The position numbers were made by a program, and so were the translations under genes. 42,288 nt of DNA from a virus, in the IMG/VR virus record IMGVR_UViG_3300034023_000064, positions 1 to 42,288 of that record, one strand, 5' to 3'. Under the pieces are notes generated by a model that saw nothing but the letters and a program-made list of their open reading frames with translations, did not search any database and was not told the DNA's origin. This document shows, in pieces, positions 23,508 through 42,116 of the stretch (the first letter of the stretch is position 1; each line of letters opens with the position of its first letter).

Positions 23508-26500
23508 GCTTTGCCTCTCTTATTGATGTGGGTATCTTACCACTTTTTAGTGGTTGCGAATGTGTGGTTATCTGGATAGACACAGCAGCCGGTTCTTCTT
23601 CTTCTTGCTCATCCTCCATGCTGTCTATAAATGCTTTCATGATTTGCTCAATCGCATCGTTATGAAGCACGTCAACAATACCACCGTGCGCGTACAAGTC
23701 TTCTTCTGTTGCAAAGATGGGTTTGCCTTGTGATAAGCGTTGATGTGCATGGTCAATGGCTTTATGCACAATACTGCGTGGCATGTCTTCACCTTCTTGC
23801 AAATGAAGAATAAGACGGATCTCGTCAAGTGTTAGCGTAGGCACCAGCGTTGGTACGTCCATTTCTTTACCATTGATAGGCACGCCAATTGAATATTCAG
23901 TCATCACGCCTGTACCGTCTGGACGCTCAAGCTCTCCGAAGTAGCCTAGTCCTTTCTTTGTTTTGTCTGGTCTGTTGCCATAACCATAGTCACTTTCTTC
24001 GTACTTGTCGTGTAGTGCTTGCACGCTGCCGCCTTTTGCAAAACCTTTAAGAGGTATGTCTTTATTTCTTTCATAAAATTCATCACGCAGAGAATTTAAT
24101 TCGTCATCAGTAACAAACCTACCGTATTTGTCGGTTGCTGCTTTATACAACTCTGGATGCATTTGACTTCCACTTTTATTTAAATCTGTTAATAACGTGT
24201 TTTCAAAATCCCCAACACTCGACCAATCTTTTGAGCGCACAAAGTCGTGAATAGCAGGCAAATACTTTTCATTAGGCGCAGCGTTTTGTTTGCCTTTGAT
24301 TTGAACAATTTTTTCTTGAGGAGGTCCGTAAAGATCTTTCATAAAATTTATTGCGGATTTTTTCATACCTAAATGAGGATTAGCGGCATTATATTCACGC
24401 ACGTCTGTTATTAATTTAGCTTGTTCATCGTAAGGTAATTTGTCCATCAACATGTTGTAATACAAATATTCGTCGGCAGGTTTGCTAGTTTCAATCGTCA
24501 CATGCGGCTCACCACGTCTATCACGCAATGAATAGATGTTGGACTTGCCGCTACCAACCTCATCACAATACTGACCAACACAATGACCCATCGTATCGCC
24601 TTCAAACTTCAGTGCGGCTTGTAGTGCATCACGTCTTTCTGCAATACGGTAATCTGCCAATGCTTCTTCTGGTGTTGACGCACTTGCCCACTCGCCACCA
24701 CTAGCATCAAGCACCGCTGGATTACCACGACTGTCCTCACCAAGGTAATGCCCTTCTTGCAATGTAGGCTCTGGCATTTTCATTTGCATCCAAGCCAACC
24801 CTTGATCGGGATATTCTTTGTGCATTACGGTTGCAGCGTTGCGACCCTCTTTGAGCTTCTCAGCTTCACGCCATGCGTTGATTTTAGCAACATGCTCAAC
24901 AGCCTGTGGCATGGAAACACGACTGAGCTTTGCTGGATCTATGCGCAGGAAGTCTGGGAGATCGGTGTCTGGATGTGTTGCATTGCGAAGTTTATTTGCT
25001 AAATCGTAAAAACCTGTGTCATTAGTATCAGTGCTTTTTATAGCGTAAACATTTTGGTTTTCTGGCACTGATTCAAGCCAAGGATTTGCTTGTAAATATC
25101 TAGGACTTGTATCAAGCAATTCTTTTGCTTTGTCAACAGTAAACGCATTGTCAGCGTAATGCTCCCAAAGTTTAGCTAAATCTGATTTAGCAATCCCTTC
25201 TACTGGGTAGCCTGCTTTTTTTCTTAATTCTTCAACATCATTGTATGGTGATATTTCTTTGTTGGGCGTGTAATGCAAAGGATTATAGTTCTCAAGCTCT
25301 GAGATCTTATCTTGAATTCCAGCAGTTTCACGCTGTGCATTAGCCATGCGATTAGCAATCACTTCTGATGGCAATCCCATTTCTTCATACTTAGCGGCAA
25401 ACTCTTGGAGGTTTGGTATCTTTGACTTTTGTTGACTGATAAGCACGTCACGTTTGGCAGGCCATTCCTCGGCAATACGTCGAACCGGATCTTCTGGCGT
25501 ACCCATTTCGTTTTTAATATATTTAGCCAGCTTTTGTTGCAACCAATCGTTGACTGCTACTTTAGGAATTGTATCTTTATATTCATAAGACGTAGGACTA
25601 TATTTTCCAGACAATGCAGCGGATGCAACATCTGGATCAACATATTGTGAATAACGCATGGCTGCGTCTTCTGGTGTTATGTAATAACTTGCACCTTTAA
25701 CAAAATTGCCACCCTTTGGTTTGATGATCCCACCAAAACCAGCATTGTCTATGATGAAATTAGGATCGCGCATTTGCTCGGTAGTGGGTACCGATCTGTA
25801 AGCAGCATCTTTTAGCCCAGTAAAAAACTTTTCTGCATTTGGGTATCCAGACAACAATTGTTTATAGTCTTCTATTGCTGCGTCAACTTCGCCACCTTTA
25901 GCGTAACCGTTATCCACTTCCCCTCCTTCTGCCCACTTAACCTTGTCTGCCCAGTACGCGGCACTGCTCTTGCCTTTGGCAATGTTCTTTGCATGACGTG
26001 CCTTGAATGATTCACGCTTTGCTGTCATGCGATCTGACTCACCTTCTTTTGGCTTGCCTGCTGTTTCAGCACCTTGCTCACCGAAGCGAATGATATTCTC
26101 TTTGCCATCAACCATTGTTTTCACAATGTGTGACTTGGTTGGATGGTTTGGCGTGCGTTGTGGTTTGTCTAACTGCAAACTGTCTTTGTCTACTCTGCCG
26201 CCTTGTGCGTAGCCTTCAACATCAAGCGACGGCCCATCACCCTCATACTTATAAATCAAGTCCTTTAATGGAATATCAGACAGTTTGCCACCAGCAAGTG
26301 GATAGTTTTCACGACGTTGCGCCATGTCCATGTCAAGACGATCTTGTGTTGCGCGTGCTTGTGCTTCGCCTGCTAGACGATTATATAATCTAAGTTTTGG
26401 TGCTTGATTATTTTCAATATTGCTGATTTCATCATTAAGTTTGTCACGCTCTGCGGCAATTTGTTTATGGCGCAAAACATTTGCAACATACTCATCTTCA

Positions 26501-28581
26501 TTGGTAATTGTGTCACGCAATTTTCCATTTTCAATAAGTGAAGTATTTAACGCTTTTAATTTTGGCGATAAATGGTTTTCAATGTAAAAAGATGCAGCAG
26601 ATCCTAAATCACCACCTTGACCCCAACCTTCTTGGTCTTGAATAGCGTGTTGCAATTCATGCATAGCTGTTGATTTATCAATAGCATCATCAACCATACC
26701 AACACCAATAATATCATCTCCAAAAAAACCACCTTTTCTTTCTGGCGATACATTCATCATAAGGCGACGATTGTTATCACCAAAATCAATCATGCCATGA
26801 TACGCATTATGTAATTCTGGATGAGATAAAAATGCTGATACTGGATCCATTATTCTTTCACCTCGTCGCAAATCTTCAGAATTTGCCCATGACCATTTAT
26901 CTTTTGGTATGGCTTGCGCATCCTTATCACTAATTTCACTAAACAAAGTCTTATCCGGCATACGACCAATCAAATGCTCGCGCCACACTTCTGCTGGATC
27001 TGCGCCTTCATCTAATTTCTTAGCGGCTAATTCAGCAGCTACCTTATCCCAGTTTCTTGATTTAGGTCCAATGAATGATAATCCTGCTGGCAAACCTTCC
27101 GTTGCCTTAACGCCTGGTGCTAATGTTGTCATCGCATCAGCAAGTGACTGCGCACGACCACGTTTAAACTGTGGTACGTTGCTCATCTCTGGTATCTGCA
27201 TTGGTGCATTGCCATAAGACCAGTTCTCAATCTCCTCTGGTGTTTTGCCCATGAGTAAATCACCAGCACCTACGCCACCGGCTAGTGGCACCCAGCTTGG
27301 AACTGTGTATTGATTGCCAACGTCACGCGCACTGCCAAGCATCTCGGCAAGTTTGCCAAGGTTCTCGTTTTGGTCTTGTGCTTTTACAATCCCACCTTCT
27401 GCATACTTTTCTTGCAACTCATCCAAACTACCAGCACGTTTTATAATTTCTGGATATTCATCACCAAACATGACGTAATTTCTTGTGCCTTTGTCAGTGC
27501 TACGCGATGTTGCGTCTAAGTATTTAAGACCAGGTATGTCAATGCTGTGTAAATACTCAGCCGCCTTTTCTGGTGATCCAAGCATCTTGGCTAGTTTATG
27601 ATAAGTGACCGACCCTTCTGCGCCTTTCTCAAACGCTGGTGACATGTTCTTGTGCATGTTGATTTCTTCAGCAATCTTTTCCATTGCAATTTGATCTTCA
27701 CGACTTGGAAAATTGTAAGTATTGGCAAACAAATCATCTGGATTGAATTCGCCATTGTCGTATTTAGATGAAATCGCGTCACGCGCATTCTGTAACTCTT
27801 GAATCTTTCTTGGTATTGCTTTGCCAACATAACTTTCAACGGGTTGATCCCAGTCTAGCAAATGATGTTCCCCAAGTGGATCCATTGCTTCACGCTCTGC
27901 GTTAGGCCAACGGATTGAGGTTTCGTAGAGGTTTCCGCCTTTTTGCGCTTCCATATCTTTTATTTCTTGCAACAAAGCAGCTTCTTTTTCTTTATCACCT
28001 CTTAATTTTGCAATATCAGCATTGTATTTTTTTAAAAATATTTTATTTTGATACTCATCAACTGGAACACCTGCTGTCATATAAGTTTTTGCAACCAAAG
28101 GATTTTCTGCAAAATAAAGTCCATGCCCATACGCTTGCGCACCTTCACCTGTTCCAATCTTTGACATGTCAAACCGGTCAAACAAATGTGGCGTACCATG
28201 ATAGGCTTTGATTGCCATACCAAGCGTACCACCTGCTGATGCAGGAGCAAACGGCATTGCACCTGTTTGCGCAAGACCAGCAAACTCCATTCCTGCTTCA
28301 GCTTTTTGTGCGTCAGTTCTGAATATTGGATGCTCCATTGCGTATAGCGGATAACTTTCTTCGTCATAACCAGCATCTTTAGCGGCTGCAAGTTCTGCAT
28401 CTGTTAGCTGGTCTGTTGCAATTGCATACATATCGTTTAAATGTTGCCCGTAACGCTTTGCCGCTTCAACGGGATGCAAGATTGTCGATGCAATCATTGA
28501 GTCATTGTCTTCAAAGTTTTGTGCATTTAATTTGTCTTTTAATACACCATATTGTTCTGCTAAATCTTTTAAGTCTGCCAT
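23500..28581 (-). CDS. 1693-residue polyvalent protein: ART, HExxH zincin, PcfJ-like and virion modules
   Basis: This giant protein looks like several separable domains joined by AxGG linkers. Residues 126-380 resemble a polyvalent-protein ADP-ribosyltransferase (AYHGTPHLFDRFD, GHGLYFAENPLVAKTY, GTRNYVMFGDEYPEII). Residues 636-660 contain MHELQHAIQDQEGWGQGGD, an HExxH zinc-metallopeptidase signature of polyvalent proteins. About 845-880 hold a basic FKARHAKNIAKGKSSAAYWADKVKW module. Residues 1331-1365 (MGHCVGQY, SLRDRRGEPHVTIE) resemble PcfJ-like domains. Residues 1543-1630 (LGYFGELERPDGTGVMTEYSIG, PTLVPTLTLDEI) match a further recurrent phage module. The linkers YAEGGIV, YAQGGRV, WAEGGEV/YAKGGEV, FAKGGSV and YAHGGIV fall near residues 394, 791, 883-897, 1514 and 1630. 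Position between terminase and portal suggests packaging with the virion and injection. Activities are inferred. Confidence 0.65.
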   Translation of the reverse strand: MADLKDLAEQYGVLKDKLNAQNFEDNDSMIASTILHPVEAAKRYGQHLNDMYAIATDQLTDAELAAAKDAGYDEESYPLYAMEHPIFRTDAQKAEAGMEFAGLAQTGAMPFAPASAGGTLGMAIKAYHGTPHLFDRFDMSKIGTGEGAQAYGHGLYFAENPLVAKTYMTAGVPVDEYQNKIFLKKYNADIAKLRGDKEKEAALLQEIKDMEAQKGGNLYETSIRWPNAEREAMDPLGEHHLLDWDQPVESYVGKAIPRKIQELQNARDAISSKYDNGEFNPDDLFANTYNFPSREDQIAMEKIAEEINMHKNMSPAFEKGAEGSVTYHKLAKMLGSPEKAAEYLHSIDIPGLKYLDATSRSTDKGTRNYVMFGDEYPEIIKRAGSLDELQEKYAEGGIVKAQDQNENLGKLAEMLGSARDVGNQYTVPSWVPLAGGVGAGDLLMGKTPEEIENWSYGNAPMQIPEMSNVPQFKRGRAQSLADAMTTLAPGVKATEGLPAGLSFIGPKSRNWDKVAAELAAKKLDEGADPAEVWREHLIGRMPDKTLFSEISDKDAQAIPKDKWSWANSEDLRRGERIMDPVSAFLSHPELHNAYHGMIDFGDNNRRLMMNVSPERKGGFFGDDIIGVGMVDDAIDKSTAMHELQHAIQDQEGWGQGGDLGSAASFYIENHLSPKLKALNTSLIENGKLRDTITNEDEYVANVLRHKQIAAERDKLNDEISNIENNQAPKLRLYNRLAGEAQARATQDRLDMDMAQRRENYPLAGGKLSDIPLKDLIYKYEGDGPSLDVEGYAQGGRVDKDSLQLDKPQRTPNHPTKSHIVKTMVDGKENIIRFGEQGAETAGKPKEGESDRMTAKRESFKARHAKNIAKGKSSAAYWADKVKWAEGGEVDNGYAKGGEVDAAIEDYKQLLSGYPNAEKFFTGLKDAAYRSVPTTEQMRDPNFIIDNAGFGGIIKPKGGNFVKGASYYITPEDAAMRYSQYVDPDVASAALSGKYSPTSYEYKDTIPKVAVNDWLQQKLAKYIKNEMGTPEDPVRRIAEEWPAKRDVLISQQKSKIPNLQEFAAKYEEMGLPSEVIANRMANAQRETAGIQDKISELENYNPLHYTPNKEISPYNDVEELRKKAGYPVEGIAKSDLAKLWEHYADNAFTVDKAKELLDTSPRYLQANPWLESVPENQNVYAIKSTDTNDTGFYDLANKLRNATHPDTDLPDFLRIDPAKLSRVSMPQAVEHVAKINAWREAEKLKEGRNAATVMHKEYPDQGLAWMQMKMPEPTLQEGHYLGEDSRGNPAVLDASGGEWASASTPEEALADYRIAERRDALQAALKFEGDTMGHCVGQYCDEVGSGKSNIYSLRDRRGEPHVTIETSKPADEYLYYNMLMDKLPYDEQAKLITDVREYNAANPHLGMKKSAINFMKDLYGPPQEKIVQIKGKQNAAPNEKYLPAIHDFVRSKDWSSVGDFENTLLTDLNKSGSQMHPELYKAATDKYGRFVTDDELNSLRDEFYERNKDIPLKGFAKGGSVQALHDKYEESDYGYGNRPDKTKKGLGYFGELERPDGTGVMTEYSIGVPINGKEMDVPTLVPTLTLDEIRLILHLQEGEDMPRSIVHKAIDHAHQRLSQGKPIFATEEDLYAHGGIVDVLHNDAIEQIMKAFIDSMEDEQEEEEPAAVSIQITTHSQPLKSGKIPTSIREAKHG

Positions 28582-31373: not shown

Positions 31374-31789
31374 ATCGCGCTAGGTAATTGACTGCTCTCC
31401 GCCTAGCGTGATTGAAATGAAAACTAAAACATGAACACGATAGCCATCACGCTATCACTAAAAACACTAACACCTAAATGCGTTTAGTGATAGCAAAAAC
31501 CACCACGTCATTGATGCAAACAACGTGGTGTAAAAACTCCCATTTAATCAATTCCAAACTTCCTACGGTACAAGTTTGATTAAACGGGCGACTAACCAAG
31601 GATCTGATAGTAACTACACAACAGTTTAAGTAGCATTAACTATCAATGAAACACCCTGCAATAAAATGTGTCTGTAGCACGATAACGTTCCTAGAATAAA
31701 CGCGCAAGATGTTTCATTCATAACTAAACCCAAGCCACAAACCAGCCATTGATAAATCGCCAAAAATAAAAATACTGGCTTGTGGTGGG
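31374..31789 (-). ncRNA. Candidate structured leader/noncoding RNA: serial hairpin array upstream of phoH
   Basis: This 450-base gene-free stretch (31350-31796) has no convincing coding frame but many inverted repeats. From low to high coordinate, the pairs are 31374-31384 with 31402-31412 (11 bp, one mismatch), 31451-31462 with 31483-31494 (12 bp, perfect), 31501-31508 with 31523-31530 (8 bp, perfect), and 31539-31551 with 31576-31588 (12 of 13). They continue with 31605-31611 with 31639-31645, 31646-31653 with 31710-31717, and 31735-31745 with 31775-31785 (10 of 11). Two imperfect positions become G-U pairs only in minus-strand RNA, hinting at that strand; one favours the other strand. Alternatives compete: 31404-31412 also pairs with 31446-31454 (9 bp) and 31439-31444 with 31451-31456. 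RNA function is inferred. Confidence 0.5.
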
Positions 31790-32381: not shown

Positions 32382-34244
32382 TCACGGGACATCTTTTCTT
32401 AACCAGTAATATCCAGCATCACGCATTACAAGTCCTTGTTTTTCAAGGTCTTTTAGTCCTTCATTGAAGCGATTGGAGTTTGACTTGCTGTTATTGCTCT
32501 TAATTTCTTCATACGCAAATGGTCGCCACTCCTCACGGGACACCACAAATTCCCGTTCGCCCAAAAGTGTGCGGGAACCACCTAAATTTTGCGTCGCTGC
32601 GATGGCTTTTTTTAGTCCATCTAAACATTTTTGCGTAGCTGGTTTTAATAACACTTCCTCTTGAGCGACTCCCACATACTCCAAGTAAACACCATCGATT
32701 TGCTCTTGCAGGTAATCATCATAAAAACATTCACCTTCCAGCGGCACAATCTTTAGCGCAAATTCCATGTTGCTACCTGCCGCAAAGTCTTTTGACTTAG
32801 TGCAACTAAAAGTCACCTCCATCTTGGATTTCTTTGTCATGCAAAACTCTGCATCCATACCAGCTTTTATGGCACTGCTACCACGCGCACGACCTTTATC
32901 CCCATGACCACTATGATGAACAGTCACAATCGCGCTGGTGTACTTCTTTGTGAGCATTTCAATGTTGGATAAATACATTGCCATGTCTTCAGACGAATTC
33001 TCGTCACCATGCATGTTTCTGTGCAGTGTATCGATAAAGATAGCGTAAGGTTCTTGATCAGTAATCTCAGCAATAATCTGGATGATTTGTTGCACCGCGT
33101 CTGCGCTCAACATATTGACTGATTTTGTGCTAAAATAAATGTTATCTGGATCACGATTGTATTTTTGCTTTAGAGCTTGCATACGCATAGCTAAACCACG
33201 ATGACCTTCACCTGCGATGTAGATGACTAGACCCTTCTTCGTCATACGTCCGTGCCATGTTATGCCATTCCCAATGCAAAACGCCCAATCTAAAGCCACC
33301 AAAGATTTACAAGAACCAGATTCCCCAAACAAGAGTGTGCTGGATCCTCGTTCCAGCACATCCTTTATTACCCAATCGGCTGGTTTCATCTTAGCCATTA
33401 ATTCCTGCACCGACACAAACAAACTTTGTTTTCTTCCGCACACAAAATTGTAAACGGATTCAATTCCCGCGTTGTTTGCCATGTCGTTGAAGTCTTCGCC
33501 TACGATTGGTGGGTAAATAACCTCAACACCACACTTATTGGCTTTCTCAACACCTACGCCAGACGTATCGTTATCCGCGCAGATCAAAACGCGACCTTTG
33601 TATTCTTTGCGGATCATGTCGCACACTGGTTTCAAATTGCCCGCGTTGAATGCAACGACAACGCAAAAGCCTGTGGCTTCATGTAGCGTCATTCCAGTTG
33701 CAAAACCTTCAGTGATTAAAACCGTATCACCTAGGCTTCCAATCACATAGTAACCGCCTTGCATCTTGCCGCCCGTGTAAAAACGCTTGTCACCATCTGC
33801 TGAAATAAACTGTAGTGACTGGATTTCTTCGTTTGCACCATAGACGGGAACGACCAGGCGATTATCATAAAGCCGCAATCCAGAATCCGCCTTGATGTTC
33901 TTGCGTATCAAATAATCATGGTTTTCAATCGTTGGCAACTTGGCGTAAAGCTCTTGCGCATTAAAGGCAGCGGAGGCGTAAGCAAAGTCACGCTCCTCCT
34001 TGGCTTTCTTTAATGCTTCTTCACGATCATAATCGCTCGCTAAGGCTTGACCATTAAGAAACCAATAGTGAACCTCGCCAGACTTCCAATCGCCAAATGC
34101 TGCGCCTTTACCGTCAGCGAACATGGATACCCAACCCGACTTGTCTTTGCCTGTCGTTTGAAATCTTGTGATGGCAGATTGCTTAATATATGGCGGAGGA
34201 TTAAATCCCACCGCACGGATTGCGTCGAGCAAATCTTGACTCAT
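32382..34244 (-). CDS. Primase-helicase (TOPRIM plus RepA-like ATPase)
   Basis: This 620-residue replication protein combines a TOPRIM primase-type part (VLITEGFATGMTLHEATG with E179, and VLICADNDTSG with D224 and D226) with a RecA-fold helicase. The helicase has Walker A GESGSCKS (307-314), GEGHRGLAMRM, Walker B AIFIDTLHRN (401-410) and VTVHHSGHGDKGRARGSSAIK. The usual Gly before Lys-Ser in Walker A is Cys here. No CHC2 zinc finger is seen at the N-terminus, though the short start (FGDWKSGEVHYWF) resembles primase N-terminal modules. The start has GGAA six bases upstream and overlaps the HTH gene by four bases (ATGA). Confidence 0.8.
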   Translation of the reverse strand: MSQDLLDAIRAVGFNPPPYIKQSAITRFQTTGKDKSGWVSMFADGKGAAFGDWKSGEVHYWFLNGQALASDYDREEALKKAKEERDFAYASAAFNAQELYAKLPTIENHDYLIRKNIKADSGLRLYDNRLVVPVYGANEEIQSLQFISADGDKRFYTGGKMQGGYYVIGSLGDTVLITEGFATGMTLHEATGFCVVVAFNAGNLKPVCDMIRKEYKGRVLICADNDTSGVGVEKANKCGVEVIYPPIVGEDFNDMANNAGIESVYNFVCGRKQSLFVSVQELMAKMKPADWVIKDVLERGSSTLLFGESGSCKSLVALDWAFCIGNGITWHGRMTKKGLVIYIAGEGHRGLAMRMQALKQKYNRDPDNIYFSTKSVNMLSADAVQQIIQIIAEITDQEPYAIFIDTLHRNMHGDENSSEDMAMYLSNIEMLTKKYTSAIVTVHHSGHGDKGRARGSSAIKAGMDAEFCMTKKSKMEVTFSCTKSKDFAAGSNMEFALKIVPLEGECFYDDYLQEQIDGVYLEYVGVAQEEVLLKPATQKCLDGLKKAIAATQNLGGSRTLLGEREFVVSREEWRPFAYEEIKSNNSKSNSNRFNEGLKDLEKQGLVMRDAGYYWLRKDVP

Positions 34245-34411
34245 AAAGATTCCAAATAGTCTGAAAGTTTTTTAATCATGTCATAGCTGGTGCGCTTTTC
34301 AATGTCATGGATAAAGCGATGAAGCGTTAAACGTGAAATGTCTGTTGATCGTGATACTTCACTGATGTTCATGGGTTTGAGTTTGGTTTTGATTTGATCT
34401 GGCGTAAGCAT
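34241..34411 (-). CDS. Cro/XRE-like small helix-turn-helix regulator
   Basis: A 56-residue frame starts at ATG 34411 (AGGA about seven bases upstream; ATG 34417 is a weaker alternative) and its TGA overlaps the primase ATG. The product reads LTPDQIKTKLKPMNISEVSRSTDISRLTLHRFIHDIEKRT followed by YDMIKKLSDYLESL. The ISEVSRSTDIS-RLTLHRF segment is a typical helix-turn-helix and the C-terminal helix could dimerise. It is the first gene behind the minus promoter of the divergent pair at 34453-34480, so it is well placed to regulate both promoters. The lack of a longer C-terminal domain suggests a Cro-like, not CI-like, protein. Confidence 0.75.
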   Translation of the reverse strand: MLTPDQIKTKLKPMNISEVSRSTDISRLTLHRFIHDIEKRTSYDMIKKLSDYLESL

Positions 34412-34433: not shown

Positions 34434-34480
34434 TATAAAAAAATATGTTGACATTATAAACAGCGTGCGGATAATAGCAA
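34434..34480. promoter_or_regulatory. Overlapping divergent promoters with a 17-bp dyad operator
   Basis: Plus promoter: TTGACA (34448-34453), 16 bases, GATAAT (34470-34475). Minus promoter: TTGCTA (34480-34475), 16 bases, TATAAT (34458-34453). Each -10 overlaps or abuts the other's -35. A dyad TGTT-N9-AACA (34446-34462) sits in the middle, preceded by TATAAAAAAATA, an UP-like element. The 38862-38903 site repeats this plan. Occupation of the dyad would affect both directions. Confidence 0.65.
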
Positions 34481-34526
34481 CCTCGGTAAAGAAATTATTT
34501 TTTTAATCCCAATGTGGAGAGCAACA

Positions 34527-35276
34527 ATGAGCTTACTTAATAGCATTACAAAACCCGTAAACAGATACCGTTTGTTCACAATTTACGGTGGAGCTGGTAC
34601 AGGTAAAACGTCTTTGGCTAATACGTTTCCTGCGCCAATTTTTATAAGAGCTGAAGATGGCTTGTCTTCAATTCCTGCTGATGCAATGCCAGACGCATTC
34701 CCAATTTTAGAAACAGGAAGTGACATCTTTAATCAATTATTGGCATTGATCAAAGAGGATCACCAATACAAAACTGTCATTATCGACAGCATCAGTAAAT
34801 TAGATCGCTTGTTTACAGATGAAATAACAAAAGGCGACAGCAACGCTAAAGCACTAGCCACAGCAATGGGTGGTTATGGTGCTGGGTACCAAGCTCTTGG
34901 CTCTATGCACGGACGTGTGCGTAAAGCCTGTCAAATTCTTTCTGATCAAAAAGACATGAACATCGTGTTTTTGTCACACGCAGAACTAAACACAATTAGT
35001 CTACCAGATGCGGATCAGTATCAGCAATTTGGTTTAAAGATGGAAAAAAAATCGCAGAGTCATTACATCGACGATGTAGACTTTGTGGGTTATCTGCGTC
35101 TTGAAACTTTTATATTAAAAGACGAACAGAAGAAAACAAAAGCGACAAGTAGCGGTGAGCGCATTATTCAATGCACGAGCCAAGCATCATCTGTTAGCAA
35201 AAACCGTATGGGTTTAACTGACGACATTTTAGTGACTTATGGTGTAAATCCATTAGCACAATTCATCAATCAATAA
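34527..35276 (+). CDS. Sak4-like RecA-fold ATPase (recombination)
   Basis: This 249-residue ATPase starts at 34527, where GGAGA lies six bases upstream; an earlier ATG at 34512 lacks one. It has Walker A GGAGTGKT (residues 21-28), TVIIDSISKLDR (Walker B, 83-90) and a conserved middle (MGGYGAGYQALGSMHGRVRKACQIL). The C-terminal IIQCTSQASSVSKNRMGLTDDI is typical of the AAA_24/Sak4 family. These proteins act in single-strand annealing or recombination with a partner SSB, which is encoded next. First gene of the plus-strand operon. Confidence 0.75.
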   Translation: MSLLNSITKPVNRYRLFTIYGGAGTGKTSLANTFPAPIFIRAEDGLSSIPADAMPDAFPILETGSDIFNQLLALIKEDHQYKTVIIDSISKLDRLFTDEITKGDSNAKALATAMGGYGAGYQALGSMHGRVRKACQILSDQKDMNIVFLSHAELNTISLPDADQYQQFGLKMEKKSQSHYIDDVDFVGYLRLETFILKDEQKKTKATSSGERIIQCTSQASSVSKNRMGLTDDILVTYGVNPLAQFINQ

Positions 35277-35290
35277 GTAGGAGAAACATC

Positions 35291-35809
35291 ATGAGTTTTT
35301 GGCAAACAAGCGAAGGTAAAAGCGCAACAACAGAAGCGACAGGAAAGTTTGAAGCGTCAGCATCGTATGAGCTTATTCCAGACGGTACCACTGCGCTGGC
35401 GATTATTACTAAGCCATCAATTGAACAATACAATGGCGATGAGTACATAAATGTTGAATGGACGATTGCAAAACCCGAAGCGTACAAAAATCGTAAGGTT
35501 TTTCAGAAAGTGCGCGTATGGGATAGCAATCCCAAAAAAGCAGACAAAGCCAAAGCGATGCTTGCAAACATTGACAAGAACGCTGGTGGTAAATTGGCAA
35601 AACTTGATAAAGATCCAACTAACGAGTCGCTTTCCGTGCTAACTGGTAAAACCATGCTAATCAAAATTCTTATCTGGAGCATTGATGATAAGACGGGAAA
35701 TTATATTGGCGCAGTATCACCACGCACAACAGAAGAAGCAGCACCTGCACCGACTCCCAAGCCAACACCTGTGGATGATGCGTTTGACGATTGGGACGTA
35801 CCTTTTTAA
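35291..35809 (+). CDS. Probable single-stranded DNA-binding protein (DUF669-like)
   Basis: This 172-residue protein begins SFWQTSEGKSATTEATGKFEA and continues with beta-rich IPDGTTALAIITK, YINVEWTIAKPEAYKNRKVFQKVRVWDSNP and TLIKILIWSIDDKTGNYIGAV-like strands. The C-terminus is a Pro-rich linker ending in the acidic tip DDAFDDWDVPF. The acidic tail with a terminal aromatic-hydrophobic pair mimics bacterial SSB tips that recruit partners. It sits between the Sak4-like ATPase and the exonuclease. SSB activity is inferred from this plus the tail. Confidence 0.65.
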   Translation: MSFWQTSEGKSATTEATGKFEASASYELIPDGTTALAIITKPSIEQYNGDEYINVEWTIAKPEAYKNRKVFQKVRVWDSNPKKADKAKAMLANIDKNAGGKLAKLDKDPTNESLSVLTGKTMLIKILIWSIDDKTGNYIGAVSPRTTEEAAPAPTPKPTPVDDAFDDWDVPF

Positions 35810-35856
35810 TTAACCAATAACCGCACAAGGATGTGCATCTTTACGAGGAAAATAAA

Positions 35857-36717
35857 ATGATTGAGCAAAGAACAGACGAATGGTTTGCGCTAAGACGCGG
35901 ACGTGTAACAGCATCAGCAGTCGGTGCAATTCTTGGGTTGTCGCCACACCAAAAACCAAAAGATGTCATGCGTGCGATGGTACGCGAATGGCACAATGCA
36001 GAAAAAGAATTTAAAGGTAACAGTGCTACCGAGTACGGTACGTTCCATGAAGACATGGCAAAGCTAGATTTTCAAATGGAAACCGGAAGCAGTATTGAGG
36101 AAACAAGTTTTCATCCTTTTGACGTGTGGCTTGGTGCATCACCAGACGGATTTGTTGGTGATCATTTGATTGAAATCAAATGTCCATTTAGTTTGCGTAA
36201 TGCAGAAAACCCAATGTTTAAAACGATTGCAGATCAACCACATTACTATGCTCAGATTCAAATTCAGTTGTTTGTGACACGCAGAAAAACGTGCATCTTT
36301 TACCAATGGAGTCCGTTTGGATCTAAAACCGAGATGGTGGAATACGATGATGCATGGATTAAAGAAAATCTGTCAAAACTGCTGGCGTTTTATGAAGAAT
36401 ACCTGTTGGAGCGTCATCACAACGCGGCTGTGCATTTAGCACTTAAGCACACAAATGTTGATGGCTTGGACGACAAGGTTAAGTATTACTTTGAACTCAA
36501 AGCGCAGATTGCATCGCTTGAAGAATTAGCCAAAGCAACACTGCAAGAAATTGTGAATGGCTGTGAAAATAAAGACAGCGAGATTGATGGTCACAAATTA
36601 ACCAAGGTGGTTAAGAAAGGATCTGTTAGCTACGCTAAAGCTATCAAAGAATTATTACCTAATGCAGATTTAACGCCATACATGGGTAAACCCACAGAGT
36701 ATTGGTTATTGTCATGA
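35857..36717 (+). CDS. YqaJ/lambda exonuclease-family recombinase
   Basis: This 286-residue protein probably degrades 5' ends to create single strands for annealing. It begins EQRTDEWFALRRGRVTASAVGAILG, the YqaJ N-terminal motif. It then has TEYGTFHEDMAKLDFQ (E62), LGASPDGFVGDHLIEIKCPFS (active-site D97 and E106-I-K108) and YYAQIQIQLFVT. The start at 35857 has GAGGAA six bases upstream; the ATG at 35833 is less favourable. It forms a recombination module with the SSB-like and Sak4-like proteins, and the helicase gene overlaps its stop (ATGA). Confidence 0.85.
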   Translation: MIEQRTDEWFALRRGRVTASAVGAILGLSPHQKPKDVMRAMVREWHNAEKEFKGNSATEYGTFHEDMAKLDFQMETGSSIEETSFHPFDVWLGASPDGFVGDHLIEIKCPFSLRNAENPMFKTIADQPHYYAQIQIQLFVTRRKTCIFYQWSPFGSKTEMVEYDDAWIKENLSKLLAFYEEYLLERHHNAAVHLALKHTNVDGLDDKVKYYFELKAQIASLEELAKATLQEIVNGCENKDSEIDGHKLTKVVKKGSVSYAKAIKELLPNADLTPYMGKPTEYWLLS

Positions 36718-38483
36718 AACAAAAAATGCGCCCATACCAACAATCAGCACACGATGAAGCGATTGCATGGGTACGCAAAAATGTGGAGTCCTGCGTTTTA
36801 GAATTACCAACAGGCGCAGGTAAATCCATCATTGTTGCCGAAATTGCCAATACGCTGCATCAAGTAAGCAAAGGCAAACACGTCTTGTGTATTGTGCCGT
36901 CAAAAGAATTGCTAGAACAAAATGCGGATAAGATCCGCGCAACAGGAAATGACGTGTCATTGTTTTCTGCCAGCGTTGGTGAAACCTGTCTTGCCAATCC
37001 ACTGGTGGTTGGCACGCCTGTCAGCATCAAAAACCAGATTGACAGGTTTGGCAGTCAATTCTGTGCAGTCATTATTGACGAATGCCACCGGATCACACCG
37101 ACAGTCATTCATATTATTGAACAACTCCAAGTGTTCAATGAACGTCTGCGCGTCATTGGTTTGTCTGCCACACCGTACCGCATGAACACTGGCTACATTT
37201 ACAAGTACGATCAACGTGACGTGGCTTTAAATGAAAACAAAAGTCGTGATCCCTACTTTCACAAGTTGATATACAAGGTGACAGCACGCGACTTGATAAG
37301 CCAAGGTTATCTGTGTCCTCCTGTTGTCGGAGAGATTCACAGCGAACATTATGAAACGCGCGACATGCAACTAAACGGCATGGGTAAGTTTTCAAAGGAA
37401 GACGTTGACCGTGCGTATCACGGCAAAGGCAGATTGACTTCCAAGATTGTTGCGGACGTGATTGCACAATCACAAAACCGACATGGCGTGATCTTGTTTG
37501 CTGCAACGGTGCAGCATGCTAGTGAAATCATGGAGTCACTGCCACCAGAGCTGTCTGAAATTGTCACTGGATCCACGCCTGCTGGTTTGCGTGAAGTTAT
37601 TTTGCTCAAGTTTAAAGCCAAGATTATTAAATACTTGGTAAACGTCGCTGTGCTTACCACAGGTTTTGACGCACCGCACTGCGACGTGATTGCACTTCTA
37701 CGCGCCACTGAGTCTGCATCACTTTTACAGCAGATGATTGGACGAGGTTTGCGTCTAAGCGACGGAAAAGAAGATTGCTTAGTTCTGGACTATGCAGAGA
37801 ATGTTGACCGGCATTGCCCAGACGGTGACGTTTTTAATCCAGATATTAAGACGATCAACAGCGTGGAGTTTGAAGGCGAGTATCTTATTGCGCGTTGCGA
37901 GAGATGCTCAACGCTAAATGAATTTAAACCACGCGACAACGATGCTGGATTTGGCATTGATGACAATGGTTATTTCTTAGACTTGCAAGGCAATCGAATT
38001 GTAACGGAGTATGGATTTTTCCCTGCGCATTATGGACGTGCTTGCCAGTCAGATTACTGCGACTATAAATGGAGCTGCAAACCGTGTCATGAATGTGGTG
38101 AAGGTAACGACATCACGGCACGGTACTGCGGATCGTGCAAAGAGGAGTTGATTGATCCCAATGAAAAGTTAGTGCGTGAATATCGTAAACGAAAGAGTGA
38201 TCCATATCAATCACAGACCGATGAAGTGCTTGATATGAAAGTTAAGCCAACTATTAGCAAAGCAGGTAACGAGTGTTTGCGAGTTGAATTTACGACTGCA
38301 TGGCGAACGTTTACCGTTTTTTTTACGCCAAAAATTACGCGCGACTACAGCAGCTTTATGGCTGTTACAAATAACGGTACAAAGATGCCTAAAACAGTCA
38401 CTTATCAAAAAAAAGGTGATTTTTACAGGGTTCACAATTACAACATGAGATTCAGAAACGATGAAATTCCCCTCTTGGCTTAA
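36714..38483 (+). CDS. SF2 DEAH-box-type helicase with C-terminal zinc ribbons
   Basis: This 589-residue helicase starts at ATG 36714, overlapping the exonuclease stop. Motifs are RPYQQSAHDEA (Q-like), Walker A LPTGAGKS (31-38), DECH (122-125), SATP (151-154), VLTTGFDAPHCDVIALLRAT (motif V) and LQQMIGRGLRLSDGKEDC (motif VI). After about residue 430 there are Cys pairs: CERCSTLNEF, CQSDYCDYKWSCKPCHECG and ARYCGSCKEE. They form one or two zinc ribbons. The C-terminal domain (VEFTTAWRTFTVFFTPKI) is uncharacterised. A DNA-unwinding role in replication or recombination is likely. Confidence 0.8.
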   Translation: MKQKMRPYQQSAHDEAIAWVRKNVESCVLELPTGAGKSIIVAEIANTLHQVSKGKHVLCIVPSKELLEQNADKIRATGNDVSLFSASVGETCLANPLVVGTPVSIKNQIDRFGSQFCAVIIDECHRITPTVIHIIEQLQVFNERLRVIGLSATPYRMNTGYIYKYDQRDVALNENKSRDPYFHKLIYKVTARDLISQGYLCPPVVGEIHSEHYETRDMQLNGMGKFSKEDVDRAYHGKGRLTSKIVADVIAQSQNRHGVILFAATVQHASEIMESLPPELSEIVTGSTPAGLREVILLKFKAKIIKYLVNVAVLTTGFDAPHCDVIALLRATESASLLQQMIGRGLRLSDGKEDCLVLDYAENVDRHCPDGDVFNPDIKTINSVEFEGEYLIARCERCSTLNEFKPRDNDAGFGIDDNGYFLDLQGNRIVTEYGFFPAHYGRACQSDYCDYKWSCKPCHECGEGNDITARYCGSCKEELIDPNEKLVREYRKRKSDPYQSQTDEVLDMKVKPTISKAGNECLRVEFTTAWRTFTVFFTPKITRDYSSFMAVTNNGTKMPKTVTYQKKGDFYRVHNYNMRFRNDEIPLLA

Positions 38484-38859
38484 AGTTTACGGTGACACTT
38501 CGTATCGTGGTGAATGCCCAAGCGAAACGCTTGAAGCAATTACATTCTTTGCGCAACTGCGACGTGAATATCCAGACACCTATGGATTGATTGCTACGCA
38601 CATTAGAAACGAAGGCAAGAGATCATGGGAGCAGGTAGCACGACAGAAAGCAGAAGGGATGACCAAAGGCGCACCAGACATTATTATTCCCACCAGGCGA
38701 GCATTTGTATGCGAGATGAAACGACGCGATCATACGAAGTCAAAATGGCAACCGATGCAGCTCGAATATCTCAAAACCGCACACGATGCCGGTGCGTTTG
38801 TTTGCGTCGCACTGGGATATGACGCGGCTTACAGCGCATTTCAAGATTCTATTGTTTAA
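38461..38859 (+). CDS. VRR-NUC domain nuclease
   Basis: This 132-residue protein starts 23 bases inside the helicase gene in another frame. It has SETLEAITFFAQLRREYPD, GMTKGAPDIIIPTRRAFVCEMKRRDHTKSKWQPMQLEYLKTAHDAG. The PD-(D/E)xK core is G-A-P-D then E-x-K (EMKRRD), with the QxxxLxxxxxAG element typical of VRR-NUC. Such enzymes act as junction-resolving or structure-specific nucleases in phage recombination. The last gene before the second copy of the early promoter. Confidence 0.75.
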   Translation: MKFPSWLKVYGDTSYRGECPSETLEAITFFAQLRREYPDTYGLIATHIRNEGKRSWEQVARQKAEGMTKGAPDIIIPTRRAFVCEMKRRDHTKSKWQPMQLEYLKTAHDAGAFVCVALGYDAAYSAFQDSIV

Positions 38860-38861
38860 AA

Positions 38862-38903
38862 TATAAAAAAATATGTTTACTTCGTGAACAGGTATGATAT
38901 TAT
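38862..38903 (+). promoter_or_regulatory. Second early promoter, near-copy of the divergent plus promoter
   Basis: TATAAAAAAATATGTT (38862-38877) is identical to 34434-34449. The -35-like TTTACT (38876-38881), 16-base spacer and -10-like TATTAT (38898-38903) are aligned with the first copy. The dyad TGTT-N9-AACA (38874-38890; six of seven pairs match) is conserved while intervening bases differ. It would drive the small-gene cluster from 38961. Confidence 0.6.
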
Positions 38904-38960
38904 TTAACCACGCTTTCAAGAAGGCGAAACAATAATAAAATAATTTACGGAGTAAATATC

Positions 38961-39245
38961 ATGAAAAAAGTAACAGAACTGCAATACGCAATGCTTTGCA
39001 AAATCATCGAAGATGATTTCACATGGAGCAATGGAAATGCTCTTGAAGCCTTAGAAGAAGGCCCAAATGGTTGTCTTACATACGTCAACCAGATCATTGA
39101 GTCAGCTCAAGATCGTGGAACTGCAACAAGTTTGATGAATGCAGGACTTGTTGGTCGTCACAATGCAGGAACCCGTGAGGACTGCATTTGGTTAACGGAT
39201 GCAGGTGTTGAGTTGATGAGAGAGCTTTACGCAGTAGCCGCATAA
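38961..39245 (+). CDS. Small winged-helix-like hypothetical protein
   Basis: This 94-residue protein is not recognised with certainty. It starts MKKVTELQYAMLCKIIEDD and has SLMNAGLVGRHNAGTREDCIWLTDAGVELMREL. The helix, then short strand (CIWLTDAG) and final helix resemble a winged-helix regulator. The start has GGAG nine bases upstream. It is the first gene behind the promoter copy at 38862 and is followed by a strong hairpin. Confidence 0.5.
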   Translation: MKKVTELQYAMLCKIIEDDFTWSNGNALEALEEGPNGCLTYVNQIIESAQDRGTATSLMNAGLVGRHNAGTREDCIWLTDAGVELMRELYAVAA

Positions 39246-39255
39246 ATATAAAAAA

Positions 39256-39281
39256 AACTGGGCGTAAATATGCGCCCAGTT
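39256..39281 (+). terminator. Strong 9-bp hairpin between small genes
   Basis: AACTGGGCG (39256-39264) pairs perfectly with CGCCCAGTT (39273-39281) over an eight-base loop. The A-run precedes the stem on this strand, so a T-run follows only on the opposite strand. A second CGCCCA (39282-39287) could pair instead. It may stabilise mRNA, attenuate, or stop antisense transcription. Confidence 0.5.
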
Positions 39282-39303
39282 CGCCCAACTTTAGGAGTAA
39301 ATA

Positions 39304-39711
39304 ATGAAATTAATTATTAAAGAAATGAAGAAGGAAAAGTTTGAAAATGCTGACTTTTTTGCAGGCGCATTTCAATCAAAAGGAGTCACAATTGAAGCAG
39401 TTGTGACAGACTGCCCAGACAGGGCTTGGCTGGAAATCGGGTTTAACGAAATGACCGTTATTGACGGTAAAGAGGTATCTTTGTTTTTAAAAGATGACGC
39501 GCAAGACACACTTGCTGCGTTATGGCGTGTGCAACAACAGGTTGCAACTGATTTACCGCTGGTGAAAAAAGTTGTATCCAGTAAATTTATTGCTGAAGAT
39601 ATGCACGGCAGAGATGTCATGTGCGATACGCTTGAAGAAGCGTTGGACGCACATAAGAGATTTGGCAATCCACGCCAAATCGATGACATAAAATTTATTG
39701 CGGGTGAATAA
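39304..39711 (+). CDS. Hypothetical protein
   Basis: This 135-residue protein is not recognised. The sequence shows a beta-rich first half (GVTIEAVVTDCPDRAWLEIGFNEMTVIDGKEVSLFL) and a helical second half (DTLAALWRVQQQVATDLPLVKK). AGGAG lies six bases before the ATG. It follows a strong hairpin and is followed by a tightly spaced second gene. Probably an early accessory protein. Confidence 0.55.
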   Translation: MKLIIKEMKKEKFENADFFAGAFQSKGVTIEAVVTDCPDRAWLEIGFNEMTVIDGKEVSLFLKDDAQDTLAALWRVQQQVATDLPLVKKVVSSKFIAEDMHGRDVMCDTLEEALDAHKRFGNPRQIDDIKFIAGE

Positions 39712-39712
39712 C

Positions 39713-40018
39713 ATGCACGAAACATTAACATTCCAGATTGTCACGCATGACAATTATGAATTGACCGCTGAGGTCAAAGTGTTAATAACTGGTAGCTTTA
39801 GAGAAGCTACATTTCATCACGAAGCTGAGGATGAACGTGAAATTGACATTGAAAATATTGCCATCTTTGATGAAGATGGTGATCCGGTAGCAAAGCCATC
39901 ACAAAGATTGCTCGACATTGTTGCAGAGCATATCGACGACAATTTTATTGAGATTTATCGTGGTGCTACCACCATTGATGATTTTCATTCAGATTACAAA
40001 TTGCGTGATCTGATTTAA
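39713..40018 (+). CDS. Hypothetical acidic protein
   Basis: This 101-residue protein, acidic in the middle (EAEDEREIDIENIAIFDEDGDP), has a beta-rich start (LTFQIVTHDNYELTAEVKVLITG). I take the start at 39713 (GGGTGA upstream) rather than 39698, since the latter would overlap the previous gene. Small acidic early phage proteins often inhibit host enzymes or mimic DNA, but there is no direct evidence here. It ends just before a terminator-like hairpin. Confidence 0.5.
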   Translation: MHETLTFQIVTHDNYELTAEVKVLITGSFREATFHHEAEDEREIDIENIAIFDEDGDPVAKPSQRLLDIVAEHIDDNFIEIYRGATTIDDFHSDYKLRDLI

Positions 40019-40034
40019 CGAATACTCCTACCTA

Positions 40035-40059
40035 GCCGCTAAGCCAAGTGGCCTTTTTT
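40035..40059 (+). terminator. Intrinsic terminator
   Basis: GCCGCT (40035-40040) pairs with AGTGGC (40047-40052, one G-U) over a six-base loop and is followed by a C and a T6 run. This has the form of a rho-independent terminator between the gene ending at 40018 and the small gene at 40072. Confidence 0.65.
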
Positions 40060-40071
40060 GAGGTTAACAAA

Positions 40072-40218
40072 ATGATTGAATTTATCAAGTGGCTAGACGA
40101 CTCGGATGTCGCCTATTTGGTTATGCTTGCGCTTTTTTTAGCGATGGCAAAATTGCATTCCAAAGCCATGGAAGAAAACACACGTTTACGCAAATTACTT
40201 AAGAGAGCAATGCGATGA
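40072..40218 (+). CDS. 48-residue small membrane protein
   Basis: A short frame with GAGG eight bases upstream encodes IEFIKWLDDSDVAYLVMLALFLAMAKLHSKAMEENTRLRKLL. One hydrophobic helix (residues 13-27) is followed by a basic, coiled-coil-like tail. Its TGA overlaps the next ATG. Likely real by ribosome site and coupling; function unknown. Confidence 0.55.
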   Translation: MIEFIKWLDDSDVAYLVMLALFLAMAKLHSKAMEENTRLRKLLKRAMR

Positions 40219-40433
40219 TTAATCCAGTACAACAAATGATTGCTGAGGCAATCAACTCAAAAGATCCAGCACACAATGTTGCGTTGGTTTGCACAGAGAT
40301 CGTGCGTGGTTTAAGTTTCATTGCTAATGCCATTCCAGACAAGGAAGAACAGGATGCGTTCATTGAAACAGTCAGCAAACAGATTCATGCAGAGCTGGAA
40401 ATCCTACAACAAACAACACAATTCGAGGCATAA
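40215..40433 (+). CDS. Small hypothetical helical protein
   Basis: This 72-residue, mostly helical protein (INPVQQMIAEAINSKD, NVALVCTEIVRGLSFIANAI, FIETVSKQIHAELEILQQ) is coupled (ATGA) to the membrane protein before it. Not recognised; no motif that defines a function. Confidence 0.5.
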   Translation: MINPVQQMIAEAINSKDPAHNVALVCTEIVRGLSFIANAIPDKEEQDAFIETVSKQIHAELEILQQTTQFEA

Positions 40434-40437
40434 GACG

Positions 40438-40686
40438 ATGAGCGCAACTCTTTTACTAACTTTATCATTTTTAACAGTCGATACCACCATCGACAAGAAA
40501 GGACGTACAACCACACATGAACGTATTGAATACACTACGAGTGTAATTCCCTACGATAGCCGCCAGGCATGCGCTAATGCGCAACAAGAATGGCAGTTTG
40601 CTGTTGGTGCTTACCAAATGAGCAAACGTCCCACTCGAATTATCACTGCTGTCTGCAATGACAGCGCAACGGGAGTGGTAGAATGA
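40438..40686 (+). CDS. Small possibly exported protein
   Basis: I start this gene at 40438 (GAGG nine bases upstream), giving 82 residues. It begins with a short hydrophobic stretch (SATLLLTLSFLTVDT), a weak signal peptide without a strong cleavage site. A soluble part with two Cys residues (ACANAQQEW, AVCNDS) follows that could form a disulfide. It overlaps the next membrane-protein gene by four bases. A periplasmic accessory role is speculative. Confidence 0.5.
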   Translation: MSATLLLTLSFLTVDTTIDKKGRTTTHERIEYTTSVIPYDSRQACANAQQEWQFAVGAYQMSKRPTRIITAVCNDSATGVVE

Positions 40687-40883
40687 AAAACGACTTAATA
40701 TGGGTAGCTATTTGTTCATTTGCAATTGGTGCATTGCTTTGCTTTATTACAATAGCAGTAACACACAGACATCATTATGAAATCATCAAAACAAATATTG
40801 GAGAGTTTATGTTACGAGACAGCAAACTATACGGGGTGTATGAGCTAAGTCGAGATAATCAAGGGAACATGGTGGCGAGATGA
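40683..40883 (+). CDS. Small single-pass membrane protein
   Basis: This 66-residue protein has one strong hydrophobic helix (residues 5-26, LIWVAICSFAIGALLCFITIAV) then HRHHYE and a soluble C-terminal part. It is coupled by ATGA to the genes on both sides. Membrane location is likely; role unknown. Confidence 0.55.
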   Translation: MKNDLIWVAICSFAIGALLCFITIAVTHRHHYEIIKTNIGEFMLRDSKLYGVYELSRDNQGNMVAR

Positions 40884-41038
40884 AACAAATAGCGTTAAAA
40901 GATCATTTAGAAAACCGTTTGCGTGAACTAAAAGAAGAACGCAGACGGTTAAAAAATCAAAAGTTGCGCAGCGTTAAAGAAAGCAACGACATAAAATTTA
41001 TTTTAGCAAAATTTAGAGAGGAGCGTAAACATGGCTGA
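40880..41038 (+). CDS. 52-residue basic coiled-coil-like protein
   Basis: A short frame from ATG at 40880 (overlapping the previous stop) encodes LKDHLENRLRELKEERRRLKNQKLR and more Lys/Arg-rich helix. It is strongly basic and probably helical. Supported by coupling only; function unknown. Confidence 0.45.
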   Translation: MKQIALKDHLENRLRELKEERRRLKNQKLRSVKESNDIKFILAKFREERKHG

Positions 41039-41108
41039 GTTAATTTTTTGGACAGGCATTGTGGTTATGATCGTCTGTTTTTTGGTGGAGTACGCTGATG
41101 GGAATTGA
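41031..41108 (+). CDS. 25-residue membrane microprotein
   Basis: ATG at 41031 with GAGGAG seven bases upstream encodes AELIFWTGIVVMIVCFLVEY and a short tail, essentially one membrane helix. The strong ribosome site argues that it is translated. Its 3' part overlaps another 25-residue frame. Confidence 0.45.
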   Translation: MAELIFWTGIVVMIVCFLVEYADGN

Positions 41109-41175
41109 TGACGCAGCGGCACTTATTTTCTTTGTTTTGGGATTAATCTTGGCGGGAATATGGATATACCATTAG
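41098..41175 (+). CDS. Second 25-residue membrane microprotein
   Basis: ATG at 41098, inside the previous frame's end, encodes GIDDAAALIFFVLGLILAGIW then YH and a stop. It is one hydrophobic helix with a DD before it. Expression would rely on coupling to the frame before it; evidence is modest. Confidence 0.35.
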   Translation: MGIDDAAALIFFVLGLILAGIWIYH

Positions 41176-41318
41176 TAAAACCAATTGAAGCATTAACGCC
41201 AGTGCAGAGCGAATGCAAACACGAACACTGGCGCATTTATCAAAGTCGCGGTTATAGAGAATGCGACAAGTGCAAGCTGCAACGACCAATCTTTAATGTT
41301 GTGAAGCATCAACGATGA
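41160..41318 (+). CDS. 52-residue zinc-ribbon-like protein
   Basis: ATG at 41160 encodes a 52-residue product with CKHEHWRIYQSRGYRECDKCKLQRP, four possible metal ligands (C-x-H then C-x-x-C) typical of a small zinc ribbon. Its TGA overlaps the next ATG. A nucleic-acid or protein-binding role is plausible but unproven. Confidence 0.5.
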   Translation: MDIPLVKPIEALTPVQSECKHEHWRIYQSRGYRECDKCKLQRPIFNVVKHQR

Positions 41319-41575
41319 ACATTAGTCAGATATTTATCAACCTGTCGCCATTCTTGCGTGACAAGTTTACAAGTGAAGTATTCACCTTGGGATTGGTGCA
41401 TGAGTTGAATCAAAAGCAATTTGAGGTACGTTGCAAGCGACTTATTCGCCAGCACAATGGTGAAACCAGAAAATTATACAAGGCTCTTTCTAGGCTAAAT
41501 GCAGCAGAAAGATTAAGATTTTTTGACGTAGTAAGTGGGGTAGATGATGGATCACAAAGAGTTGCAGATTATTAA
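41315..41575 (+). CDS. Small hypothetical basic helical protein
   Basis: This 86-residue, helical and basic protein contains FLRDKFTSEVFTLGLVHELNQKQFEVRCKRLIRQHNG and LYKALSRLNAAERLRFFDVV. It overlaps the zinc-ribbon gene (ATGA) before it and the degenerate HNH-like gene after it. Not recognised. Confidence 0.5.
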   Translation: MNISQIFINLSPFLRDKFTSEVFTLGLVHELNQKQFEVRCKRLIRQHNGETRKLYKALSRLNAAERLRFFDVVSGVDDGSQRVADY

Positions 41576-42116
41576 GCAGATTGTGCGATACAGTGCAAAA
41601 ACTGGAAATTTTTATCGTGGTGGATCTGATTTGCCAGCTAAGTTTGCAAATAAAAAAAAGCACGCAACAATTTCATTTCAGAGAGGTGAAATTAATCGCA
41701 CTTATCCAGCATGGAAAATTGCGATTTACATGTCGCATGATTATTGGCCAGACGATGGTGATACTTGTGAATATGTCGATAGCAATCTAAATAATTTGAG
41801 TTTGAGCAATCTGCGCGTTATCCATTTTAATGATGACGAAACAACGGTCATGGATTACTGCATTGATAACCAGCTTGAGTATCGATATGTGTCACTAAAA
41901 ATGCGCAAAGAAAAAAGGATCAGAAGAAATGTTGGTGGGATGTCGTACTGGTTTTACAAAAAAGAAGACTTTGAACGCCAGTGCCGCAGTTTAAAAAAGA
42001 TAGATGTTGAACAGGTAAAAAAACCAAGTATTGGCAGACGCAAAAACCAGCACTTTAGAGATTTTTTAAAAACACACATGATTGTGCCAAAACGGTGGGA
42101 GATGACTTTATGTTAA
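41544..42116 (+). CDS. Degenerate HNH-like protein
   Basis: This 190-residue protein resembles the layout of HNH homing endonucleases. It has RYSAKTGNFYRGGSDLPAKF, AWKIAIYMSHDYWP and then CEYVDSNLNNLSLSNLRVI, where an HNH enzyme would usually have an Asp-His pair followed by Asp-x-Asn-x-x-Asn-x-x-x-Asn-Leu-Arg. The catalytic His is absent, so nuclease activity is doubtful. The C-terminal part is basic (KPSIGRRKNQHF). The start could be 41544 or 41547; GGGG precedes both. It might be a DNA-binding derivative of an HNH enzyme. Confidence 0.45.
   Translation: MMDHKELQIIKQIVRYSAKTGNFYRGGSDLPAKFANKKKHATISFQRGEINRTYPAWKIAIYMSHDYWPDDGDTCEYVDSNLNNLSLSNLRVIHFNDDETTVMDYCIDNQLEYRYVSLKMRKEKRIRRNVGGMSYWFYKKEDFERQCRSLKKIDVEQVKKPSIGRRKNQHFRDFLKTHMIVPKRWEMTLC

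Follow-up and report, generated by a model that had tools for sequence, protein, structure and literature searches.

In the plasmid pLS20, the promoters Pr and Pc are arranged in such a way that, in the assignment favoured by the authors, the -10 box of each falls on the -35 box of the other (PMC4207663). The bidirectional promoters of Escherichia coli, among which acrA/acrR is an example encoding its own repressor, are bound by RNA polymerase in two mutually exclusive orientations; because of the symmetry of the -10 element, their two starts lie mostly 18 bp apart, with spacings of 10 or 23 bp also found (PMC12825309).

The locus described here belongs to a 42,288-nucleotide stretch of viral DNA (IMG/VR record IMGVR_UViG_3300034023_000064, positions 1 to 42,288; hereafter the window), in which two outward-facing promoters, PR and PL, are fused between the divergent hth-primase and Sak4-SSB-exonuclease-helicase operons (site 1; Table 1). 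The reading that we favour, with a probability of about 0.6, is that site 1 is a bidirectional early promoter, which polymerase uses in only one direction at any moment and which is co-repressed by the auto-regulated helix-turn-helix (HTH) protein, that is, a Cro-like early shut-off. This reading replaces the 'two-way switch' proposed in the first-pass annotation of the window, and the recurrence of the arrangement across phage families is its most interesting part.

Table 1. Features of the two promoter sites and of the flanking operons (positions in the window).
Feature	Position	Strand	Remarks
Strong terminator-like hairpin, 12-bp stem, GTTTTT tail	31501..31530	-	Possible end of the leftward early operon; ahead of the PhoH and terminase genes
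Primase-helicase (Toprim + AAA_25)	32382..34244	-	4-bp overlap with the 3' end of the HTH gene; Pfam, PHROGs
HTH regulator, 56 aa, first gene of the leftward operon	34241..34411	-	phrog_18104 transcriptional regulator, E 8e-10
A-tract immediately upstream of PR, UP-element-like	34434..34445	+	Common to site 2 and clade B; diverged in L011
17-bp dyad TGTT-N9-AACA, candidate operator	34446..34462		Spans PR -35 and PL -10/start; arms and core conserved across clades
PL, promoter of the hth-primase operon, TTGCTA-N16-TATAAT	34480..34453	-	-35 34480-34475, -10 34458-34453; 10/12 to consensus
PL predicted start	about 34446	-	Position expected from the promoter
PR, rightward early promoter, TTGACA-N16-GATAAT	34448..34475	+	-35 34448-34453, -10 34470-34475; 11/12 to consensus
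PR predicted start	about 34482	+	Position expected from the promoter
Sak4-like ssDNA annealing ATPase, first rightward gene	34527..35276	+	Pfam AAA_24, phrog_124
Rest of the rightward operon: DUF669/SSB-like, YqaJ exonuclease, DEAD/ResIII helicase, VRR-NUC-like	35291..38859	+	DUF669 and VRR_NUC below cut-off
Second dyad TGTTTACTTCGTGAACA	38874..38890		Clade A: changes only in the centre; clade B: right half lost
Second rightward promoter TTTACT-N16-TATTAT, ahead of the 38961 gene block	38876..38903	+	9/12 to consensus, TG before the -10
Small-gene block (94, 135, 106 aa, others), 3' of site 2	38961..42116	+	Mostly without known function

The hexamers and N16 spacers of both promoters were confirmed where the first-pass annotation had placed them, and so was the TGTT-N9-AACA dyad. 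The further claim that the -10 box of each promoter lies on the -35 box of the other is correct as to position, but the overlap amounts to just one base pair, the boxes otherwise abutting: the PR -35 and the PL -10 have only position 34453 in common, and the PL -35 and the PR -10 only position 34475. This sharing of single base pairs accommodates two complete outward promoters within 33 bp. When promoter pairs were scored with standard sigma70 weights, using 100 dinucleotide shuffles of the whole 42,288-base record as the null, the pair at site 1 reached 25.8 bits and was the sole interleaved pair of at least 20 bits in the record; the shuffled windows contained a mean of 0.02 places scoring at least 25 bits. 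Site 1 is thus an interleaved sigma70 pair, with both promoters near consensus and each -10 at the -35 of the other.

The description of the first minus-strand gene as encoding a 56-residue HTH protein was borne out by a model of its fold. In sequence, the protein matches phrog_18104 (Table 1). Its translation begins with MLT, which is the conserved start. The Pfam family HTH_26 matched the protein just under the cut-off (E 3e-4, 21.4 bits against a cut-off of 22), and HTH_3 also stayed below it (16.9 against 23). The AF2 model (pLDDT 90) consists of four helices, at residues 4-11, 16-23, 27-34 and 43-55, packed in the compact all-helical fold with an HTH that is typical of the Cro/C1 (XRE) type. 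Its fold matches included SinR (TM 0.79), P22 c2 (up to 0.70) and 434 Cro (0.58); the Foldseek E-values all exceeded 0.05, which is not surprising for a chain of 56 residues. The protein is predicted with good confidence to be a four-helix HTH domain, nearest in fold to SinR and related XRE/Cro proteins. Structures of SaPI2 Stl-Sak4 were also among the matches; the idea of a Sak4 anti-repressor that they prompted was dropped because the 56-aa protein corresponds to the HTH part only.

In the mechanism that we propose, the host RNA polymerase would occupy the 33-bp element in either orientation, never in both simultaneously, and would transcribe the Sak4-SSB-exonuclease-helicase genes when facing rightward and hth-primase when facing leftward. 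As the 56-aa protein accumulates, a dimer would bind the 17-bp dyad; since it would cover the PR -35 as well as the PL -10 and start, both promoters should be repressed, that of the HTH gene included, and in clade A (see below) the second rightward promoter at 38876 would be shut as well. The outcome would be that the replication and recombination genes are expressed in a pulse that limits itself through negative feedback, without bistability. We infer the mutual exclusion of polymerases at site 1 (by analogy with overlapping promoters in the literature, such as those of E. coli, PMC12825309), the binding of the HTH protein to the dyad, and the repression with its timing.

A near-identity DNA search of phage records gave no match. 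A scan of viral contigs with TAAAAAAATATGTTKAC retrieved clades A, B, L211 and L215, the other matches being mostly unrelated, A+T-rich contigs. Clade A comprises 13 loci with HTH proteins 91-100% identical to that of the window; site 1 is kept in 13/13 of them, and site 2 (the second copy, at 38862-38903) in most of those that extend that far. In clade B (HTH 45-50%, Sak4 about 80% identical) site 1 reads TGTTTACATTATAAACT, and this 16-mer is kept at site 1 of L211, whose HTH protein is 39% identical to that of the window and 72% to that of clade B. The PR -35 and a -10 are retained in clades A, B and L211, and the PL -10 is kept in all clades; the PL -35 of clade B is weak or very poor (GTACTA). 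The dyad proved to be conserved in relatives, as the check proposed in the first-pass annotation demanded: its core TGTTKACATTATAAAC does not vary at site 1 among clade A, clade B and L211, the HTH proteins of the latter two being only 39-50% identical to that of the window. L011 has a diverged A-tract and spacer, but its 17-bp dyad, its -10 and the opposing -35 are unchanged. A scan with TerL found a 97% match in L256, a contig binned as Methylomonas, whose genome holds a Sak4-like protein only 36% identical and no HTH match. L256 is apparently a phage whose early region is a different one, which would point to a swap of early regions between related phages, and it therefore says little on host or lysogeny.

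The copy at site 2 is real (79% identity over 43 bp, E 4.5e-5 in a search within the record) and includes both a dyad and a promoter, but it is not a divergent pair: on the minus strand there is only a weak candidate matching 9/12 of the consensus, with no minus-strand gene downstream. Since the flanking genes both run rightward, site 2 is one-directional in its gene context. Its -35 and a -10 are retained in clades A and B. In clade A its dyad, TGTTTAC/GTGAACA, is better than that of site 1. In clade B the A-tract, the -35 and a -10 are kept and the dyad reads TGTTTACTTTTTARAAT, the right half being gone, so that a circuit with two operators is not general; a search of the flanks in other families found a second site only in clades A and B. 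It should be noted that, 3' of the site 2 promoter, positions 38911-38928 (CGCTTTCAAGAAGGCG) can fold into a short hairpin, whose counterpart in L215 reads CGTTCACAAGAACG, which suggests a compensatory change and a hairpin in the 5' mRNA before the 38961 gene. A strong terminator-like hairpin in minus-strand reading (10-bp stem with 6 GC, T-rich tail) lies at 39255-39282, between two plus-strand genes, where a minus-strand transcript is not expected.

The search with the HTH protein also led to 64 more distant loci (33-49% identity), which have the C-terminal motif KKLSDYLE in common. This motif is almost the same as one of the words used in the search, so that its constancy is in part a bias of the search. 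The set compared comprised 32 non-redundant HTH families (<70% identity), including the cultured phages H103, CASP1 and 1N2-2 and the record MW202675. An interleaved pair was found upstream of the HTH gene in 21 of the 32 families, CASP1 and 1N2-2 among them, each with p<=0.05 against its own shuffles; about 1.6 would be expected (Fisher 4.6e-21), bearing in mind that families with common ancestry are not 32 independent inventions. Of 23 aligned pairs, 21 have their two -35 hexamers separated by 21-23 bp, the exceptions being 20 and 15 bp, and in 18/23 a G directly precedes the -35 on each arm. Judging from these alignments, the geometry has survived while the sequence around the promoter pair has not.

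As regards the operator, two candidates were considered. The two -35s commonly form an outer inverted repeat, which is striking in single cases (TGTGTTGAC/GTCAACACA in 1N2-2, GGGTTTACA/TGTAAACCC in L078), but this candidate was rejected because the promoters themselves explain the repeat and no significant arm-to-arm covariation was seen over 23 aligned pairs (p 0.09-0.12, flanks and whole arm). As for the inner dyad, 7 of 22 families have its left half-site, GTT, at a distance of N9 or N10 from the right AAC, whereas about 0.6 families would be expected, as estimated from the counts at other offsets; of the two operator candidates, we therefore prefer the inner dyad in clades A and B. It is not universal, the inner half-site being absent from most of the distant families among the 22 compared. 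No regulon of repeated operators was found in the flanking sequence examined in other families.

The main alternative, which we consider rather unlikely, is that site 1 is simply a pair of overlapping sigma70 promoters, that the dyad is a by-product of setting TTGACA against TATAAT, and that the HTH protein acts elsewhere. The dyad pattern is indeed no more frequent in the window than expected by chance (2 matches against 2.2), its half-site GTTGACA includes the -35 itself, site 2 of clade B retains the promoter without the dyad, and the covariation and the missing inner half of most families, discussed above, speak in the same sense. Both matches, however, sit at the two promoter copies, in identical register to the -35 and behind the ATAAAAAAATATG tract, and four observations argue against a by-product. 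The dyad is better at site 2 of clade A, where no divergent gene needs a promoter, and its variants there are confined to the centre; families that have the promoter geometry in common show an enrichment of GTT at N9/N10; the G before both -35s goes beyond the hexamer consensus; and L011 retains the 17-mer while its flanks change.

It is quite improbable that the HTH protein is instead an activator or orientation selector, which from the dyad would block one direction and help the polymerase in the other. The very poor leftward -35 of clade B is what would be expected of an activated promoter, and at the interleaved pLS20 promoters RcoLS20 acts in this manner at low concentration (PMC4207663). 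Because Rco at low level also activates its own promoter, we keep this explanation open, but the dyad lies over the PL -10 and start and the PR -35, positions that normally repress, and the clade A promoters are near consensus in both directions.

As the first-pass annotation had stated, the phage shows no integrase: the record, a linear contig that may be incomplete, has no match to PF00589, and the scanned ORFs include no integration family save one weak and spurious match to PhoH. No second regulator or repressor was found near site 1 or among the scanned ORFs either, the nearest thing being a 114-aa match to phrog_858 (12000-12344) inside the structural block. Given the uncertain completeness of the contig, the absence of these genes is not proof. 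Prophage copies were sought by an HTH profile scan, with a single peptide pattern, of a bacterial collection of one genome per species (84,980 species), and no relative of the HTH protein was found. The phage is probably not temperate. The 'two-way switch' is not supported: both divergent transcripts carry replication and recombination genes, and two promoters blocked by one protein at one site would go off together and not exclude each other. A bistable circuit of the lysis/lysogeny type, with the HTH protein as Cro and an unseen partner repressor, is suggested by the resemblance of divergent promoters plus a small HTH protein to immunity regions, but is highly improbable, as neither two antagonistic repressors nor an integrase or other means of lysogeny was seen in this linear contig, and neither transcript holds an immunity repressor.

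With regard to the gene surroundings, a structural block on the minus strand (portal, head, tail, terminase) takes up most of the left part of the record. Between its portal and terminase genes, a 1693-aa protein (23500-28581) has several weak family matches and is possibly a large polyvalent protein ejected with the DNA. Near the left end, long arrays of 9-bp and 6-bp-based repeats extend over 252-1516, and the frame 1109-1516 within them encodes a Pro-Leu-Pro-rich repeat protein. For Sak4, the start at 34527 (MSLL) was favoured over one at 34512, in view of the many relatives that align only from residue 5 and of the GGAG ribosome site before 34527. In its 5' leader (34505-34521), a stretch resembling AAYCCCAATG(W)GGAG lies just before the start codon, and also before Sak4 in four distant families (L016, L022, L046 and L135); it is possibly a translation element or a second regulatory element.

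Across the families, a large replication gene, often encoding a primase, typically comes next after the HTH gene; the distance from the HTH start codon to the beginning of the next large gene is 160-190 bp in most loci. The divergent neighbour is a Sak4-like gene in 47 of 74 loci (iterated profile search) and an SSB-like or different gene in the others. Four Sak4 phages in whose annotation no HTH gene appears in the region have primase and Sak4 on one strand. It is possible, and we propose it tentatively, that many phages of different hosts have one early-control module, in which a gene for an HTH protein of about 56 aa and a primase gene oppose a recombination operon across a fused bidirectional promoter with -35s 22 bp apart, and in which competition between polymerase orientations, together with the HTH protein, would set the replication/recombination ratio and the shut-off. 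A search of the openly accessible literature found no study of this HTH/primase/Sak4 promoter module. Should the picture drawn here hold, the early genes of a group of aquatic and soil phages that has been little studied are controlled by a promoter in which both directions compete for a single polymerase and whose geometry is nearly fixed, even though the HTH proteins of the families are only 33-50% identical to that of the window. The module would be testable in the cultured CASP1 and 1N2-2, and would be a compact natural part, with a built-in repressor, for the study of bidirectional promoters.

The gene layout of the window (HTH/primase/Sak4) is found in Pseudoalteromonas phage H103, Alcaligenes phage CASP1 and Idiomarinaceae phage 1N2-2, for whose loci the literature searched held no regulatory study. 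CASP1 and 1N2-2 also have the interleaved promoter pair, whereas the promoters of H103 are not clearly interleaved (p 0.09); in all three, the HTH protein is only 34-36% identical and the 17-bp dyad is not kept. With Cro proteins (lambda-type; PY54 Cro, with one 16-bp operator), the locus has in common a small DNA-binding protein, a palindromic site of 16-17 bp and a divergent early region (PMC4488713). In temperate phages, however, Cro opposes a CI repressor, and none was found in this linear contig; the predicted resemblance to 434 Cro is at the level of fold only. Compared with the bidirectional promoters of E. coli, the starts are farther apart here (about 36 bp) and each -10 abuts the opposing -35. 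The closest experimental precedent for the promoter geometry is pLS20, which has interleaved boxes and a divergent gene encoding the regulator of both promoters (PMC4207663). It differs in being a plasmid of a Gram-positive host, whose tetrameric RcoLS20 acts by looping between two operators and activates at low concentration (PMC4207663), whereas in the phage the protein has 56 aa and each promoter region a single dyad.
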